Assembly (NCBI RefSeq): GCF_013760955.1
Contig: NZ_JACDUL010000004.1
Coordinates: 1-64,000 of the forward strand
From: Methanococcus maripaludis
Lineage (GTDB): Archaea; AGJL01; Methanococci; Methanococcales; Methanococcaceae
Direction: 5' to 3'
DNA length: 64,000 nucleotides
A model generated the notes under the pieces. The model ran no database searches, had not been told where the DNA came from, and saw only the letters and a list, made by a program, of their open reading frames with translations. Positions 49,746-58,503 of the stretch are shown in pieces (the first letter of the stretch is position 1; every line of letters starts with the position of its first letter). A program made the translations under genes and the position numbers.

Positions 49746-51047
49746 TTATCCTATATACACAAATCTTGCTGCAAAGACAATTGCGAGTAAATATACAATT
49801 GGGTGTACTTCTTTTGCACGTCCTGCAATTAATTTAATTAATGGGTAGAAAATAAACCCTAATTGAAGTCCTGTTGCAATGCTGTACGTTAATGGAATTG
49901 TAATTAATGCAATGAATGCAGGAACTGATTCTGTAATATCTTCCAAATCAATTCTTTTTATTGCAGAAATCATCAAAGCTCCAACAATTACCAGTGCAGG
50001 TGCTGTCGCGTATGCAGGAATTGCTGCAACAAATGGTGAGAAAAATATCGAAAGCACAAACAATGCAGCAACTACAACTGAAACAAATCCAGTTCTTCCA
50101 CCAAGTCCAATACCGGAAGCGGATTCAATGTAGCTTGTAACTGTCGAAGTACCAAGAGCAGCTCCAACCGCAGTTGCAACTGAGTCAGACATTAATGCTT
50201 TTTCTGCTTTTGGAAGTTTTCCTTCTTTTAAGTATCCTGCTTGCGAGCTAAGTGCACTAAGTGTTCCAAGAGTATCAAACAAGTCGACAAAGAAGAATGC
50301 CAAAATTATGTTTATGAGGCCAAAACTAAGAGCACCCATAACATCCATCTGCATCAGTGTTGGTGCTAGTGATGGAGGCATTGAAACTAAACCTGCAGGG
50401 AGTGCTGAAATACCAAGTCCCATTCCAATTACTGCGGTTAAGATAATACCCCATAGAATTGCACCCGTTACTTTTCTAGCCATCATTGCAGCGGTTGCAA
50501 ATAATCCAAAGAGTGCTAAGAATGTTGCAGGTGAAAGCACGTTTCCAAGACCCACCAGGGTAGCTTCGTTTGCAACGATAACTCCCGCAGATTTTAAACC
50601 AATAAATGCAATAAATAACCCGATACCAACAGCAGTACCGTATTTTAAAGCGTCAGGTATTGCATCAAATATCCACGTTCTAATTTTAGTTAATGTTAAC
50701 AAAATAAATAAAATACCAGAAATAAAAACAGCACCAAGAGCAGTCTGCCAACTTAGGCCCATGCCCATTACCACACCAAATGTAAAAAATGCGTTTAAAC
50801 CCATTCCTGGTGCAAGTGCAAACGGATATTTAGCATAAACGCCCATTATAAAAGTACCGAGTGCAGCGGATATACATGTTGCAACCATTACTGCTCCAAA
50901 GTCCATCCCCGCTAGACTCAAAATTGACGGATTTACAAATATGATATATGCCATGGTCATGAACGTTGTAACCCCTGCCATGGTCTCTACTTTGAAGTTT
51001 GTGTTGTGTTCTTCAAACCCAAAGTACTTAGCCAAAAAATTTGCCAT
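49746..51047 (-). CDS. Purine (adenine/guanine/hypoxanthine) permease, AzgA-type NCS2
   Basis: 433-aa permease with about thirteen helices. AzgA family marks are present: TMAYIIFVNPSIL in helix 1-2, ALAPGMGLNAFF, FFFVDLFDTLGTL, and TSTVTSYIESASGIGLGGRTG. These proteins bring in purine bases with protons. The start is at 51047 behind GGGGTGAGG; the frame continues 22 codons upstream without support. It is divergent from sepS over 95 bases. Confidence 0.92.
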   Translation of the reverse strand: MANFLAKYFGFEEHNTNFKVETMAGVTTFMTMAYIIFVNPSILSLAGMDFGAVMVATCISAALGTFIMGVYAKYPFALAPGMGLNAFFTFGVVMGMGLSWQTALGAVFISGILFILLTLTKIRTWIFDAIPDALKYGTAVGIGLFIAFIGLKSAGVIVANEATLVGLGNVLSPATFLALFGLFATAAMMARKVTGAILWGIILTAVIGMGLGISALPAGLVSMPPSLAPTLMQMDVMGALSFGLINIILAFFFVDLFDTLGTLSALSSQAGYLKEGKLPKAEKALMSDSVATAVGAALGTSTVTSYIESASGIGLGGRTGFVSVVVAALFVLSIFFSPFVAAIPAYATAPALVIVGALMISAIKRIDLEDITESVPAFIALITIPLTYSIATGLQLGFIFYPLIKLIAGRAKEVHPIVYLLAIVFAARFVYIG

Positions 51048-51142
51048 AACCTCACCCCAATTAATTAATATATAATATAAGCAACTAATTATGATATAAA
51101 GATTACATTTCAATCATAAAATTTAGAAATTTAGTGATAATA

Positions 51143-52756
51143 ATGTTTAAAAGAGAAGAAATCATTGAAATGGCTAATAAGGACTTTGAAAAAGCATGGA
51201 TTGAAACTAAAGACCTTATAAAAGCTAAAAAGGTAAACGAAAGTTACCCGAGAATAAAACCAGTTTTTGGAAAAACACATCCTGTAAATGACACTATAGA
51301 AAATTTAAGACAGGCATACCTTAGAATGGGTTTTGAAGAATATATAAATCCAGTAATTGTTGATGAAAGAGATATTTATAAACAGTTCGGCCCTGAAGCT
51401 ATGGCAGTTTTGGACAGATGCTTTTATTTAGCGGGACTTCCACGACCTGATGTTGGATTGAGCGATGAAAAAATTTCACAGATTGAAAAACTTGGAATTA
51501 AAGTTTCTGAACACAAAGAAAGTTTGCAAAAAATACTTCACGGATACAAAAAAGGAACACTTGACGGTGACGATTTAGTTTTAGAAATTTCAAATGCTCT
51601 TGAAATTTCAAGCGAGATGGGTTTAAAAATTTTAGAAGAAGTTTTCCCTGAATTTAAGGATTTAACAGCAGTTTCTTCAAAATTAACTTTACGAAGCCAT
51701 ATGACTTCAGGATGGTTCCTTACTGTTTCAGACCTCATGAACAAAAAACCGCTTCCATTTAAACTCTTTTCAATTGATAGATGTTTTAGAAGGGAACAGA
51801 AAGAAGATAAAAGCCACCTGATGACATACCATTCCGCATCCTGTGCAATTGCAGGTGAAGGCGTGGATATTAACGATGGAAAAGCAATCGCAGAAGGTTT
51901 ATTATCACAGTTTGGGTTTACAAACTTTAAATTCATTCCTGATGAAAAGAAAAGTAAATACTACACCCCTGAAACTCAAACTGAAGTTTACGCATACCAC
52001 CCAAAATTAAAAGAATGGCTCGAAGTTGCCACATTTGGAGTATATTCCCCAGTTGCATTAAGCAAATACGGAATAGATGTGCCAGTAATGAACTTGGGAC
52101 TTGGTGTTGAAAGACTTGCAATGATTTCTGGAAACTTTGCAGATGTCCGTGAAATGGTATACCCGCAGTTTTATGAACACAAACTTGATGACAGGGCTGT
52201 CGCTTCAATGGTAAAACTCGATAAAGTTCCAGTAATGGATGAAATTTACGACTTAACAAAAGAATTAATTGATTCGTGCGTTAAAAACAAAGATTTAAAA
52301 TCTCCTTGTGAATTGACAATTGAAAAAACATTTTCGTTTGGAAAAACTAAGAAAAATGTAAAAATAAACATTTTTGAAAAAGAAGAAGGTAAAAACTTGC
52401 TCGGACCTTCAATTTTAAACGAAATATACGTTTACGATGGAAATGTAATTGGAATTCCTGAAAGTTTTGACGGAGTAAAAGAAGAATTCAAAGAATTTTT
52501 AGAAAAAGGAAAATCTGAAGGAGTTGCAACCAGTATTCGATACATTGATGCGCTCTGCTTTAAACTTACTTCAAAATTAGAAGAAGCAATTGTTACAAAT
52601 ACATCTGAATTCAAAGTTAAAGTCCCAATTGTTAGAAGTTTAAGCGACATTAACCTAAAAATCGACGATATCGCATTAAAACAAATAATGAGTAAAAATA
52701 AAGTAATCGATGTTAGGGGACCAGTCTTTTTAAACGTCGAAGTAAAAATTGAATAA
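51143..52756 (+). CDS. sepS: O-phosphoseryl-tRNA synthetase
   Basis: 537-aa class II, alpha4 synthetase that attaches phosphoserine to tRNA-Cys; SepCysS then converts it to Cys-tRNA. Family marks: an N-terminal helical domain, HGYKKGTLDGDDL, LRSHMTSGWFLTVSDL, FSIDRCFRREQKEDKSHLM (motif 2 with phosphoserine-binding residues), and GLGVERLAMI (motif 3). Length equals the known M. maripaludis enzyme. A GTGAT site favours ATG 51143 over the in-frame ATA/ATG three codons upstream. It is a single gene, convergent with the 68-aa gene. Confidence 0.97.
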   Translation: MFKREEIIEMANKDFEKAWIETKDLIKAKKVNESYPRIKPVFGKTHPVNDTIENLRQAYLRMGFEEYINPVIVDERDIYKQFGPEAMAVLDRCFYLAGLPRPDVGLSDEKISQIEKLGIKVSEHKESLQKILHGYKKGTLDGDDLVLEISNALEISSEMGLKILEEVFPEFKDLTAVSSKLTLRSHMTSGWFLTVSDLMNKKPLPFKLFSIDRCFRREQKEDKSHLMTYHSASCAIAGEGVDINDGKAIAEGLLSQFGFTNFKFIPDEKKSKYYTPETQTEVYAYHPKLKEWLEVATFGVYSPVALSKYGIDVPVMNLGLGVERLAMISGNFADVREMVYPQFYEHKLDDRAVASMVKLDKVPVMDEIYDLTKELIDSCVKNKDLKSPCELTIEKTFSFGKTKKNVKINIFEKEEGKNLLGPSILNEIYVYDGNVIGIPESFDGVKEEFKEFLEKGKSEGVATSIRYIDALCFKLTSKLEEAIVTNTSEFKVKVPIVRSLSDINLKIDDIALKQIMSKNKVIDVRGPVFLNVEVKIE

Positions 52757-52761
52757 AAATT

Positions 52762-52968
52762 TTAGATTGATTTCATAGATATAAAATAAGCAGTACTTGC
52801 CCAGCAATCAATTACTGATTTTATATTTCTTTTTCCATATTTTTTGTATGCCATTTTTCTAAGTTCGTATATAGTATCGGTTAATTCATCCCTACCCATT
52901 AAAGGAGCTTTTAACAACAAATTAACCGCTTTTTGATCAATATTTACCATTTTATTATTAGTTTTCAT
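52762..52968 (-). CDS. Small hypothetical protein (68 aa)
   Basis: 68-aa basic, helical protein without a recognised family. The centre, GRDELTDTIYELRKMAYKKYG, looks like an amphipathic helix followed by a basic turn, and one cysteine lies near the end. A GAGGT site lies before the ATG, supporting expression. It ends five bases from the sepS stop, convergent. It could bind nucleic acid, given its charge, but nothing firmer can be said. Confidence 0.55.
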   Translation of the reverse strand: MKTNNKMVNIDQKAVNLLLKAPLMGRDELTDTIYELRKMAYKKYGKRNIKSVIDCWASTAYFISMKSI

Positions 52969-53025
52969 TATTATACCTCTTTTCTGAGTATACTCGATAA
53001 ATAAAAAAATTGTTGAATTTTGAAT

Positions 53026-54963
53026 TTAAAATCCAAAAAACCTGCCCATAGTATGTACAATAATTCCAACAATTGTTGCAAGTCCTAAATTATATGCTAA
53101 ACCAAACCCGGTCCATTTTAAACTCCTTGTTTCAAGATATAGTGCTGCAATTGCTGAAACACACGGGATATATATCGTTGAAACGAGCGCAAGAACAAAT
53201 GCATTCAAAGGAGTTAAATATTCCAGAATATTTCCCGAATAAGATATTTCTAAAACTGAAACTACGAGTTCTTTTGCAAATATTCCAAATAGAAGTGATA
53301 ATCCCGCAGTTCCGTCAAGACCCATTAACATAGTTAAGGGTTCTATTATAGTTCCGATACTCATTGCATAATTGTAATCTGGAGTTGGGTATGTTGTGAG
53401 TGCATAGAATAAAACAGACCCCAGTGCAATTACAGTTCCTGCTTTTTTCAGAAATTCCTTACCTTTTTGCCACGTCATTTTAAATACATTTTTCCAATCC
53501 GGAACTCTGTACGGGGGCAGCTCAAAAATTAAATCGTCAGATTTGCCCTTAATTAGCTTTCCTAAAATGTACGAAACCAGCATCATCAGCAGAATTGTTA
53601 TACCGATTATTGAAATTGTAAACAATGTTGCATTTTGTGGGAAAAATACTGCCGCCAAAAACCCGATTATTACAAATCGTGCTGAACATGGAACTAATGG
53701 GGCTACAAGCATTGTAATTAGTCTTTCTTTATGATTTGAAATAAACCTGGATCCCATAATACCTGGAACAGTACAGCCTAAACACGTTAGAAGAGGAATC
53801 GTTGATTTTCCATTCAAACCAAATTTGGACATAATTCCATGCATTAATGCAGTTACTCTCGATAAATATCCTGTATCCTCAAGTACAGAAAGTGATAAAA
53901 TCATCAGAAATACTAGGGGGAAGAATTCAAGGACTGCACCAACTCCCGAAAAAAGTCCGTCAATTAAAATCCCTTGATAAGCAGAAGGTATAATTAATGA
54001 CAACGATTCAAGGATTACTTCAAAAATTCCAGCTATTATTCCCGTGAATACATCACCCAAACCATATACGAATTTAAACATTAGATAAAACACAGCCAAA
54101 AATACTAAAAAACCGTATGCAGGATGTGTAACGATCGAATCTACGTCATCGTAAAATTCGCAACCCTTTGTAACTTCAGATAAAATATCATCTATTTTTT
54201 TATATCTCTGTTCAACGACGTAACTTTCTATATCGTGTTTTATTTCATTTTCAACTTTTTCTTTGATATTATTCCTTAAATTTACTATATCTTCGTCAAA
54301 TGTACTTAAAAATTCAGGATCGCCCTCTAAAAGTGCAATTGCAATTCCCCTTCTAGATATTTTTTCGTATTTTTTAGGAATTAAACTTGCATTTATGTTA
54401 TTTTCCAAGACTTTGGCAGAGTCTTCTAAAAGTTTACTGTACTTTATTTCCTGTTTTTCAGGACTGTAATCATAAACCGCTTTTTTTAGTTCGTCTATCC
54501 CGATATTGTATCTACCCGAAGTTTTTAAAACCACACTTTGAAGTTTTTCACTTAATTTTTTTATATCAATTTTCATTCCAGATTTTTCCGCTTCATCGAT
54601 TAAATTTAGACAGATTACAGGAGAAATTCCAAGCTCCATTAATTGTAAAGTTAAATAAAGATTTCTATTAATATTAGACGTGTCAACAATGTTTAAAATC
54701 ACATTATTCTTAGTTTCAGCTGATTTAATTATAAAATCTCGCGAAATTTTTTGATCTATCGAATCAGAATTTAATGAGTAGATTCCAGGTAAATCTGTAA
54801 CCATGAAATGTACATTTTCATATGTAAATTCACCTTCCCTCTTTTCTACAGTAACTCCTGGCCAGTTACCAATTTTTTGACTACTGCCCGTAAGAACGTT
54901 GAATATTGTGGTTTTTCCGACATTTGGCTGGCCTAAAAGTGCAATATTTTGAAAATCGTACAT
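53026..54963 (-). CDS. feoB: Ferrous iron transporter FeoB
   Basis: 645-aa Fe2+ importer. The cytosolic N-terminal G-domain has GQPNVGKTT (G1), DLPGIYSL (G3) and NLIDEA (G4), then a guanine dissociation inhibitor region of helices, then eight or so membrane helices with the gate motifs (EFFPLVFLMILSLS, LTCLGCTVPGIMGSR, and PCSARFVIIGFLAAVF). GAGG within the end of the preceding 41-aa gene serves as its ribosome-binding site, seven bases before ATG 54963. It is the last gene of the feo operon. Confidence 0.96.
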   Translation of the reverse strand: MYDFQNIALLGQPNVGKTTIFNVLTGSSQKIGNWPGVTVEKREGEFTYENVHFMVTDLPGIYSLNSDSIDQKISRDFIIKSAETKNNVILNIVDTSNINRNLYLTLQLMELGISPVICLNLIDEAEKSGMKIDIKKLSEKLQSVVLKTSGRYNIGIDELKKAVYDYSPEKQEIKYSKLLEDSAKVLENNINASLIPKKYEKISRRGIAIALLEGDPEFLSTFDEDIVNLRNNIKEKVENEIKHDIESYVVEQRYKKIDDILSEVTKGCEFYDDVDSIVTHPAYGFLVFLAVFYLMFKFVYGLGDVFTGIIAGIFEVILESLSLIIPSAYQGILIDGLFSGVGAVLEFFPLVFLMILSLSVLEDTGYLSRVTALMHGIMSKFGLNGKSTIPLLTCLGCTVPGIMGSRFISNHKERLITMLVAPLVPCSARFVIIGFLAAVFFPQNATLFTISIIGITILLMMLVSYILGKLIKGKSDDLIFELPPYRVPDWKNVFKMTWQKGKEFLKKAGTVIALGSVLFYALTTYPTPDYNYAMSIGTIIEPLTMLMGLDGTAGLSLLFGIFAKELVVSVLEISYSGNILEYLTPLNAFVLALVSTIYIPCVSAIAALYLETRSLKWTGFGLAYNLGLATIVGIIVHTMGRFFGF

Positions 54964-54967
54964 TTTA

Positions 54968-55093
54968 TTACCTCTTAAAAGCACTTTTTGAACATATGCA
55001 ACTTTTGTTACTGCAATTTGAACATGAAGCCTTTATTGTTAATTTTGAAAGTTTTACGATTAAATTTTCGAATAAATTTTCACTTTTTTTCAT
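54968..55093 (-). CDS. 41-aa cysteine-rich protein between feoA and feoB
   Basis: A 42-codon frame starts at ATG 55093 behind AAAGGTGATGAT, a strong ribosome-binding site, and its TAA (54968-54970) lies four bases before the feoB ATG. The product has a basic amphipathic N-terminal half and a cysteine group, CSNCSNKSCICSK, giving a C-x2-C-x4-C-x1-C pattern. It is too short for the usual gene callers. It could bind Fe2+ or a cluster and so serve as FeoC-like partner of FeoB, but it is not homologous to bacterial FeoC by eye. Position inside the operon supports the iron link. Confidence 0.75.
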   Translation of the reverse strand: MKKSENLFENLIVKLSKLTIKASCSNCSNKSCICSKSAFKR

Positions 55094-55103
55094 ATCATCA
55101 CCT

Positions 55104-55310
55104 TTAAATTACAAAAATAGAACTTGCGAGTTGCCTTCCGATTGCAATTTTTGAATTTCCAAGCCGTACTGTAATCGGCCCTTGATTTCGAATATTTATA
55201 AGAGTCAGTACCGAACCAGGAATTATTCCAAGTTCATAAAATTTTCTACCGTGCCCCTCGACCTTAACTACTGTGTATGACCCGGGTTTTTTGCTTAAGA
55301 TACAGTTCAT
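55104..55310 (-). CDS. feoA: Ferrous iron transport protein FeoA
   Basis: 68-aa SH3-like protein required with FeoB for Fe2+ uptake. The fold signature KVEGHGRKFYELGIIPGSVLTL and GPITVRLGNSKIAIGRQLASSI are typical of FeoA. GGAGGCAGG precedes ATG 55310. It opens the operon feoA-41 aa-feoB, whose genes are 10 and 4 bases apart, and follows a 480-base control region with three palindromes. Confidence 0.92.
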   Translation of the reverse strand: MNCILSKKPGSYTVVKVEGHGRKFYELGIIPGSVLTLINIRNQGPITVRLGNSKIAIGRQLASSIFVI

Positions 55311-55364
55311 AACCTGCCTCCAAAAATTTACTTTGTCTGATTTGACATATTTTAGTTTGATTAA

Positions 55365-55388
55365 ATTATTTAAGTGTGCTTAAATAAT
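55365..55388 (-). promoter_or_regulatory. Palindromic operator, feoA-proximal copy
   Basis: ATTATTTAAG-TGTG-CTTAAATAAT has perfect 10-base arms around a four-base centre, 55 bases before feoA. It shares the TTTAAG-TGNN-CTTAAA core with two further copies upstream. Likely bound by a metal-dependent repressor of the DtxR type, which is the common iron regulator in archaea; the protein is not in this window. Confidence 0.65.
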
Positions 55389-55519
55389 ATTGAATAAGAT
55401 TTGTTTTTAGAAATTGAATACTTAAAAGACTAAAATTTATAACTACATTCTATGATTTTTTAGGGGTAAAAAAAATCTTAAAAAGTCTATTTGGTTTATT
55501 TAACAAGTGTTTCGGTTCA

Positions 55520-55570
55520 TTAAATAAATCGTAATCGGTATCCGCATTTAGTAATAAAAAATTTATTCAT
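55520..55570 (-). CDS. Possible 16-aa micro-ORF in the feo leader
   Basis: ATG 55570 opens a 16-codon frame (MNKFFITKCGYRLRFI) behind GGTGTTTTG, overlapping the end of the 27-aa frame in an ATGA junction. It might be a leader peptide or chance. No homologue is known to me. Confidence 0.22.
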   Translation of the reverse strand: MNKFFITKCGYRLRFI

Positions 55571-55646
55571 CAAAACACCTGCCCATATACATTTTATAAA
55601 ACTGGCAATTTTTTCTTTTACCAGTTATTCCGGATTTTGAACTCAT
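55563..55646 (-). CDS. Possible 27-aa iron-regulated micro-ORF with two cysteines
   Basis: Frame of 27 codons starting at ATG 55646, about 36 bases inside the two upstream palindromes and about 50 after the expected transcription start. The product ends NCQFYKMYMGRCFDE, with a C-x9-C pair flanked by aromatic and acidic residues. The ribosome-binding site is weak (TGTGAAAAT). Its place between two copies of the same operator suggests it is transcribed under iron control; translation is unproven. Confidence 0.3.
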   Translation of the reverse strand: MSSKSGITGKRKNCQFYKMYMGRCFDE

Positions 55647-55681
55647 ATTTTCACATTTTTTATTTTATTAAGCATCCTTAA

Positions 55682-55705
55682 AATATTTAAGTGCGCTTAA
55701 ATATT
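55682..55705 (-). promoter_or_regulatory. Palindromic operator, distal copy 1
   Basis: AATATTTAAG-TGCG-CTTAAATATT, perfect 10-base arms, covers the expected transcription start 25 bases downstream of the minus-strand TATA box. A repressor here would block transcription directly. Confidence 0.68.
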
Positions 55706-55706
55706 G

Positions 55707-55718
55707 TAAGTGCACTTA
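55707..55718 (-). promoter_or_regulatory. Palindromic operator, distal copy 2
   Basis: TAAGTGCACTTA is a perfect 12-base palindrome one base away from distal copy 1, and lies directly next to the TATA box. Centre spacing from copy 1 is 19 bases, roughly two helical turns, so two dimers could bind cooperatively on one face. Confidence 0.62.
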
Positions 55719-55721
55719 AAT

Positions 55722-55729
55722 TATATAAA
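55722..55729 (-). promoter_or_regulatory. TATA box of the feo transcript
   Basis: TTTATATA on the minus strand, a near-consensus archaeal TATA box, lies just upstream of the paired palindromes and about 60 bases past the tpiA stop, predicting a start near 55697 and a leader of about 390 nt to feoA. Confidence 0.55.
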
Positions 55730-55790
55730 TTTTTCTATGATAACCGGTAAAAATTGAATATAATTTAAAGAGTAAAAAAGAATTTTATTT

Positions 55791-56504
<714 letters not shown>

Positions 56505-56534
56505 TTATAGGTAACTTTTTGAAAAAAGGAGAAT

Positions 56535-57353
56535 TTAGATTTTTATTTCTTTTAATGCTTCTTTTACTTCCACATCTTCGTGAACAATTTTACAGATTGC
56601 ACTCGTAATTCCCTTGACATCTTTGTGTTGGAACACGTTTCTTCCAGATGCCACACCTTTTCCACCTGCGTGCATTGCATCTTTTACCATTTGTAAGAAT
56701 TCTTCGTCAGTGTTTGTTTTAGGGCCACCTGCAATAACAATTGGAGCAGGACATCCTTTAACAACTTCTTTGAATGTATCTGGGTCACCAGTGTAATTTG
56801 TTTTGATGATATCAGCACCAAGTTCAGCACCGAGTCTTGCAGCGTGAGCAACTACTTCAGGGTCTTTTTCATCTTCAATTTTTGGACCTCTTGGGTACAT
56901 CATTGCAATTAATGGCATTCCCCATTGTTCGCAGGTTTCTGAAATTAAACCTAAATCCCTGTACATTTCAAAGTCGGTTTCTGCACCAACGTTTACGTGT
57001 AATGAAACTGCATCTGCACCGAGTCTCATTGCATCTTCAACTGTTGTTACAATCACTTTTTTATTTGGGTCTGGTGAAAGGGAAGTTCCTGCTGACATAT
57101 GTATGATTAACCCGATATCTCTTCCGTAGCCCCGGTGTCCATGCCTTACAAGACCCTTATGGCCTAAAACTGCATTTGCTCCACCATCAGCAACTGCATT
57201 TGTCGTAATCCTCATATCTTTCAGTCCATCGAGTGGCCCCGATGAAACCCCGTGGTCCATAGGGATTATCACCGTTTTTTCACTTTTTTTATCGAATATT
57301 CTTTCTAATCTGATAAGTTTTCCTACGTTTTTGATATTGTCGAACATTTTCAT
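56535..57353 (-). CDS. 2-amino-3,7-dideoxy-D-threo-hept-6-ulosonate (ADH) synthase
   Basis: 272-aa class I aldolase-type TIM barrel. It belongs to the archaeal aroA'-type group that condenses 6-deoxy-5-ketofructose 1-phosphate with aspartate semialdehyde, the first step of the archaeal route to 3-dehydroquinate and aromatic amino acids. Marks: [16 protein letters not shown] near residue 28, [10 protein letters not shown], the Schiff-base lysine in [11 protein letters not shown] near residue 180, and [22 protein letters not shown] before ATG 57353 sets the start. Matches the M. maripaludis enzyme recalled as MMP0686. It could also keep some fructose bisphosphate aldolase activity. Confidence 0.92.
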
Positions 57354-57755
57354 AAACAATCACCGTTAAAAGTATATAGAGTCGTCTTTGGATTTATAGT
57401 ATATAGTATGGAGAATATACTCTTGTCATTAAATTCCTTAAAATCTGCAAAACACCGCAATCGTACTTTTTTACGAATACAGCTTAATTTAACCAAACAA
57501 TCTCAGCAGTTAATAATACCACTGGTATGAAAAAAACAATCTAAACCCTAATGCGCCACATAATTTATTTATAATACATTCCGAATTCCTGATGTTACTC
57601 TGCCTATGCGTCATTTTCCATCCCTCTTTTTTTCGTTTGTAGTAGGTCTTTAATTTTGTTTTTTTATTTTACAAAAATTCATCTAGCTATATTGATATAT
57701 ATATTTTCCGATTTTGTTCATTGAAAAATAAACCGCAGATTGAATGAATTTTAAA
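57354..57755. other. Region upstream of ADH synthase, 402 bases
   Basis: Both neighbours read leftwards. Most is AT-rich, but about 57500-57640 has less skew and distinct composition. It includes a 34-codon minus-strand frame (ATG 57613, GAGGGATGG ahead), which looks more like a decayed fragment than a gene, and T-runs at its right edge. No RNA gene could be folded with confidence. Confidence 0.4.
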
Positions 57756-58397
57756 TTATACAATTCTATAAATATCCACTGGAACGTTTACAGCCTTTTT
57801 AGTATGGAATTCATAAATTGCAGGGATTCTAAAATCTGCCTGGAATATATTCGTAATTTCTAGTCCTTTTTCTTTAACGTAATTTATTAAAAAATCCCTC
57901 GTTGCAGTATTGTGGATTGTGTAAATTACATCCCCAATTTCAAACGCCTTATCTAAAAAAATCCGGTCAGCATACTTTTTTTGAGATCCAAACGGCGGAT
58001 TTTGAATAACTACCTTTTTTAAATTATTAAAATCGGAAAAATTATCTTCAAAATATTTTTTATCGATGTTTTTAACGTCAGAATTTATAAAATCGACCGT
58101 TAAATCCAAATTTGAATTCATATTTAAATTTTTCAAATTTTCTTTTGCTGTATCAATTGTTTCTTTATCAATATCAATCCCAACTGCATGTTCTGCGCCA
58201 AGCACTTTAGCACCGATTATAAGCCTACCGCTGCCACAACCAAGGTCAATTACAAAACTGCCTTTAATATCGTCTTTAGCAAACAATAAAAACTCGCTTG
58301 CGAGGTTTCCTTCGATAGAATACTGTTCAAGGTGTGCTTTTGGTTTTGGATGCGGTTTTAAATTGTCAAGTAAAATTTCAAGGTGTCTCTTTTTCAT
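57756..58397 (-). CDS. METTL5-like N6-adenine rRNA methyltransferase
   Basis: 213-aa class I methyltransferase. SAM-binding motif VIDLGCGSGRLIIGA near residue 48, acidic motif GIDIDKETID, and catalytic VIQNPPFGSQ near residue 132, the NPPF form that targets adenine N6. The layout resembles METTL5 and archaeal homologues that act on small-subunit rRNA; substrate is inferred. The most likely start is ATG 58397 after a weak GGGAT; an upstream in-frame ATG (58415) adds six residues. Not close to other RNA genes. Confidence 0.85.
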   Translation of the reverse strand: MKKRHLEILLDNLKPHPKPKAHLEQYSIEGNLASEFLLFAKDDIKGSFVIDLGCGSGRLIIGAKVLGAEHAVGIDIDKETIDTAKENLKNLNMNSNLDLTVDFINSDVKNIDKKYFEDNFSDFNNLKKVVIQNPPFGSQKKYADRIFLDKAFEIGDVIYTIHNTATRDFLINYVKEKGLEITNIFQADFRIPAIYEFHTKKAVNVPVDIYRIV

Positions 58398-58503
58398 AAA
58401 AATCCCAAAAATCATTATAAGAACTGATTAAAATTACAACTATAAAAAATCATTATTAAAAATAAAATTAGTTAAATAAAAAAATAATTATGGTTAAATT
58501 AAG

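Follow-up and report, generated by a model that had tools for sequence, protein, structure and literature searches.

An open frame for 41 amino acids between feoA and feoB, in the 64,000-nucleotide stretch of Methanococcus maripaludis DNA analysed here (the window), is a real, conserved gene. Its cysteine-rich product, which we call X, is very probably, judging from sequence and surroundings, a small accessory part of the archaeal ferrous-iron importer, because relatives with the same core cysteines hold the same place in all the genomes of the genus that were searched.

The feoA-X-feoB operon and evidence that X is a gene

X (positions 54968 to 55093, minus strand; delimited on the basis of sequence, homologs, profile and an AlphaFold2 model) runs from an ATG at 55093 to a stop codon at 54968-54970 and translates as MKKSENLFENLIVKLSKLTIKASCSNCSNKSCICSKSAFKR. 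It is preceded by feoA (68 aa; 55104 to 55310, minus strand; PF04023, 48.5 bits against a cut-off of 23) and followed by feoB (645 aa; 53026 to 54963, minus strand; TIGR00437, 521.7 bits against a cut-off of 315.65). X carries cysteines at residues 24, 27, 32 and 34, which give the motif C-x2-C-x4-C-x-C stated in the first-pass annotation; its ribosome-binding site is good, and the spacing on both sides is tight, as likewise noted there. The gap of 10 nt between feoA and X contains the sequence AGGTGAT (55097 to 55103, minus strand), directly behind the feoA stop codon, while the gap between X and feoB is 4 nt. The feoB ribosome-binding site, GAGGTAAT (54967 to 54974, minus strand), overlaps the stop codon of X, which makes translational coupling from X to feoB likely. 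The 64 kb hold 6 ATG frames of 25-60 aa with such a ribosome-binding site, among which X alone has at least four cysteines.

A hidden Markov model built without the window's own X detected it among the 1666 frames of the window with E = 1.8e-11, and a model from which its three closest relatives had also been omitted still did so with E = 1.3e-8 in the 64-kb window; the runner-up frames scored E = 0.94 and 0.15. Coding selection on X is also visible in alignments of close pairs, where the differences at codon positions 1/2/3 amounted to 2/2/10, 3/4/11, 4/4/9, 6/4/10, 4/4/9 and 3/0/5, and where the NG86 dN/dS ratios ranged from 0.06 to 0.38, with one YN00 value of 0.46 (over some 45 codons such ratios are rough). 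The earlier description of X as a convincing small gene is thus upheld by the leave-one-out profile, by the homologs between feoA and feoB, and by coding selection.

Features of the X family

In an alignment of 12 rows, the first two cysteines (C24 and C27 in the window) and a third were found in 12 of 12, so that the cysteines, on whose conservation the first-pass annotation had made its reading depend, are kept at three positions in every aligned member. The spacing is C-x2-C-x(2-5)-C throughout, and a fourth, sometimes a fifth, cysteine stands in a varying place: X of G000b, G001 and G004 has C-x2-C-x5-C-x3-C, and that of G002, G005 and G006 has CGSCGNC (CX2CX2C). Family members are 32-60 aa long and share a charged, variable N-terminal start, followed by a helix of the type EKILVKISKxIVKASC. 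The AlphaFold2 model, which is of modest confidence (mean pLDDT 70, pTM 0.36), consists of a helix over residues 3-25, a short second helix and cysteine turns of low confidence. Across the family the helix is basic and amphipathic (moment 0.39-0.56) and net charges range from +3 to +7; no transmembrane segment was found in X, the top 19-residue mean hydrophobicity being 0.14-0.24, with many lysines. X gave no match to a known structure or family. The window protein has the homologous helix, the three invariant cysteines and the place between feoA and feoB by which we define the feoA-X-feoB family.

Distribution and inheritance of X

A protein search found relatives of X in 7/7 genomes of the genus, each lying downstream of feoA and upstream of feoB except at a relic locus in G003, and a further homolog between feoA and feoB in G008, which belongs to another genus of the same family. 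An equivalent frame, whose absence from related feo loci the first-pass annotation had named as telling against its proposal, is therefore present in all seven genus genomes and in G008. The genome of the window (G000) also contains a second feoA-X-feoB operon, with X at G000:C4:110551-110685 (METLKKEKKENLIEKILVKISKNIVKASCSCCSEKKNCKGKCNTE). A tree built from 23 FeoB proteins contains nine FeoBs from G008 and the genus, both G000 copies included, and each of these comes with X; support for their clade is moderate (85/89), and the window FeoB sits on a long branch. Because all nine FeoBs of the clade, including both G000 copies, carry X, the tree indicates that X was inherited and duplicated with feoB and has stayed with it since at least the common ancestor of the genus and G008, through an operon duplication.

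The same type of FeoB stands without a recognisable X in several relatives within the family (G007, G009, G012 and G016-G019), so this FeoB does not need X everywhere, and in the sister family f2, which has a different FeoB, no X was found. Candidates for X occupy the right place in G010 (32 aa), G013 and G011 and have C-x2-C plus a third cysteine; they are supported mainly by place, with left-out profile values of E = 0.004, 0.006 and 0.87, respectively, the lower E-values obtained where the model included these sequences being inflated. Among the 394 genomes searched, the approximately 360 archaeal genomes outside the order gave no convincing match (best E = 4.9e-4). No FeoB motif was found at locus L089, and matches at E of about 0.3 in several genomes (e.g. 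G000:C3:205648) were discarded because they fall on the zinc protein RNA polymerase subunit P.

The relic locus of G003 (L002/L023; G003:C1 near 1522.6 kb, beside tpiA) has lost feoA and feoB and retains the X frame, with its cysteine motif intact (profile E = 1.1e-9) and ATC at the position expected for the ATG. When G000 and G003 are compared (49746-57359 versus L023, L024, L021 and L027), the two feo loci are seen to have swapped the flanks on their feoB side, a SepRS-like gene and a permease in one case and GNAT and kinase genes in the other, with the feo loci about 56-57 kb apart in both genomes. The arrangement resembles the outcome of an inversion in which one feo operon recombined with the other.

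The Methanococcus voltae protein Mvol_0976

In M. voltae, Mvol_0976 sits between FeoB (Mvol_0975) and FeoA (Mvol_0977); it was detected by proteomics, rose 69-fold on FeS2, where FeoB rose 14-fold and FeoA 211-fold, and was called unique and ferredoxin-like by the authors, whose BLAST found it in M. voltae alone (PMC9431491). Like X, Mvol_0976 is cysteine-rich and lies between FeoB and FeoA. Its CX2CX2C motif, the feature that had led to its selection, is absent from the window X; it very probably belongs to the same family because X of G002, G005 and G006 has CX2CX2C in that very place. Mvol_0976 and the window X are thus very probably orthologs, an identity resting on place and motif, and the X family very probably corrects its reported uniqueness to M. 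voltae.

Comparison with FeoC and other small cysteine-rich proteins

The first-pass annotation had found X unlike FeoC, and this holds: the FeoC profile PF09012 (cut-off 21 bits) matched no X member, its six-frame search of the genome gave nothing at E <= 0.1, and comparison of the X profile with FeoC-like proteins gave a probability of 4.7%, with the cysteine stretch as the sole aligned part. PF09012 matches within the order fall in parts of longer frames and were rejected as X. FeoC also has a winged helix-turn-helix domain (about 70-80 aa), to which nothing in X corresponds: the 41 aa of X form one long and one short helix in the model. FeoC, whose membership criteria include binding of NFeoB and of an Fe-S cluster and which is proposed to be an Fe-S or redox switch on FeoB, resembles X in being a small Feo-operon protein with a cysteine cluster, in its case one containing C-x2-C-x5-C, but it has a winged helix, is about 75-85 aa long and is as a rule encoded behind feoB, whereas X has 32-60 aa, one main helix and a place before feoB. 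The FeoC of E. coli has the cluster C-x4-C-x2-C-x5-C, in which C61, C64 and C70 are spaced C-x2-C-x5-C, and its C61S/C64S variant acts like loss of feoC (PMC8749426). This C-terminal spacing is matched exactly by some X members, the window X having x4 instead of x5. Two winged-helix FeoC-like proteins encoded downstream of feoB in an archaeal family (L206 and L207), one of which reaches the FeoC cut-off, have C-x2-C-x5-C-x3-C, the spacing of X in G000b, G001 and G004. With so few short spacings to compare, three or four, the likeness may be convergence.

PF12669 proteins resemble X in being very small and cysteine-rich, in occurring at feo loci without FeoC, and in having the helix first and the cysteine cluster last. 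They are found mainly in Firmicutes and Bacteroidetes, downstream of feoB, with an N-terminal membrane helix and the pattern Cx3-5Cx2-3Cx6-8C (PMC8749426), whereas X lacks a membrane helix, lies upstream of feoB and is spaced C-x2-C-x4-C-x-C. The best score of an X member against the PF12669 profile was 13.7 bits (E = 0.078; cut-off 27). No genome of the order exceeded that cut-off, a weak control in that the control genomes missed it too, and the matches in the genome search lay mainly on the membrane-helix positions of the profile. The bacterial-type ferredoxin motif CX2CX2CX3CP was likewise not found: the window X is without CX2CX2C, and only G002, G005 and G006 have CX2CX2CX5CP.

A separate gene encodes a 240-aa protein with apparently three FeoA-type domains (L031 2018-2931, L234 3208-4222 and L235 3160-4111), and in all three genomes concerned (G009, G013 and G016) it is followed by a gene for a small cysteine-rich protein of 54-67 aa. 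In G009 there is a DtxR-like gene next to it, and in G013 and G016 a second feoB stands upstream of it. The small protein is like X in having a helix and then [VIM]ACS-x-CP-x4-C, but it stands in another place and is not detected by the X profile; any kinship is putative.

Operator-like palindromes upstream of feoA

Three sites in the window match the palindrome TTTAAGTNNNCTTAAA with at most one mismatch, all within 55369-55720: TTTAAGTGTGCTTAAA at 55369 to 55384, upstream of feoA, and TTTAAGTGCGCTTAAA at 55686 to 55701, both exact, and a third with one mismatch at 55705 to 55720 (none assigned to a strand). The two exact matches are the only ones in the 1.76-Mb genome. TTTAAGTNNNCTTAAA is present at feo in 6/7 genomes of the genus and at the relic locus in the seventh (G003); it occurs once upstream of feoA in G002, G005 and G006, while in G004 and G001 the sole genomic match lies between feoA and X. 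A reversed control pattern also gave a few matches per genome, so that lone matches elsewhere mean little and the weight lies on the recurrence at feo. A similar palindrome stands upstream of feoA in G008. These palindromes are probably metal-regulator operators, for which we infer a DtxR-family repressor as the natural candidate.

TTTAAGTNNNCTTAAA was also seen upstream of a gene for a heavy-metal P-type ATPase in G002, G005 and G006 (L189, L190 and L191), and the M. voltae P-type ATPase Mvol_0781 was reported to be up on FeS2 (PMC9431491); a metal regulon shared by feo and this ATPase is possible. Between the palindromes and feoA lies a 27-aa frame, MSSKSGITGKRKNCQFYKMYMGRCFDE (55563-55646, minus strand). 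G003 has a corresponding frame at the equivalent position, the homolog MGSKNGISGNKKKGYSFYKMYLEGCFDE (E = 1.6e-5, 63% identity), which has a good ribosome-binding site. The 27-aa frame is perhaps a second small gene or a leader of the feo operon. No Rfam family was found in 52500-58500.

Proposed function and alternatives

We lean towards the view that X is a minimal FeoC-like subunit of the archaeal ferrous-iron importer, which would bind iron or an Fe-S cluster and act on FeoB. As a small cytoplasmic counterpart of FeoC without the winged-helix domain, it would use its basic amphipathic N-terminal helix to dock on the cytoplasmic side of FeoB, on FeoA or on the membrane surface, its cysteine cluster would bind Fe(II) or an Fe-S cluster, and the iron, redox or Fe-S status of the cell would be relayed through X to the activity or stability of FeoB. 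The operon role of X is well supported, and of the earlier proposal of an archaeal Feo accessory factor, the operon place and the conserved cysteine core stand; what we infer is the physical or functional role with FeoB, including the docking, the binding of a metal or cluster, and which way the regulation runs. At appreciably lower probability, X could be a group-specific sensor or carrier of Fe-S or iron-sulfide, unrelated to FeoC, that couples FeoB to iron-sulfide uptake. If so, small cysteine proteins would have been recruited to Feo more than once, and X would be a Feo component of sulfide-rich, pyrite-using methanogens.

The main rival to a FeoC-like subunit, though a doubtful one, is that X is a chaperone and not a regulator, picking up Fe(II) or iron-sulfide species where FeoB opens into the cytoplasm and delivering them to storage or Fe-S assembly. 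X would suit such a carrier in that it is cysteine-rich and basic, lacks a membrane segment and is not predicted to adopt a DNA-binding fold; its three or four cysteines could hold and pass on Fe(II), and its M. voltae counterpart is induced by growth on pyrite, from which iron may be taken up along with sulfide (PMC9431491, PMC8516115). However, X is linked to feoA and feoB only, with no link to Suf or storage genes seen, and this linkage fits a sensor equally well, a choice that sequence alone cannot settle. We consider it improbable that X is a structural or zinc-binding assembly factor, with bound zinc or disulfides, that keeps the FeoA-FeoB complex or a FeoB oligomer stable with no iron sensing: C-x2-C pairs are common in zinc knots, but X matches zinc motifs weakly (E = 0.007 for SWIM and 0.011 for RNA polymerase subunit P), below or far below the curated cut-offs, and the operon's regulation, which seems to be tied to iron, speaks for iron as the ligand.

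Two further explanations would deny the product any function. The overlap of the X stop codon with the feoB ribosome-binding site, and of X with the feoB start in G001 and G003, would fit a leader peptide translated to control feoB translation, by sensing at cysteine codons or by coupling, with an inert product. This is very unlikely because in three genomes (G002, G005 and G006) X lies several hundred nt away from feoB and because proteomics found the protein itself in M. voltae (PMC9431491); the N-terminal helix and cysteine core are also kept at the protein level, with few amino-acid changes. That X might be a functionless chance frame, as could be imagined for so short a frame in A+T-rich DNA, is refuted by its conservation, given the leave-out profile, the codon selection, and a place and cysteines conserved in eight genomes.

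Significance

Methanogens need much iron, and the parts of their importer beyond FeoA and FeoB are undefined. A conserved third feo gene, with a counterpart that is detected and strongly pyrite-induced in M. voltae, offers a short, testable target, and relatives of these archaea have genetic systems. Whether FeoC, PF12669 and other small cysteine-rich Feo proteins are akin or convergent has been posed as a question (PMC8749426), and X, as a third, unrelated-looking type of small Feo protein with a similar cysteine core, bears on it.
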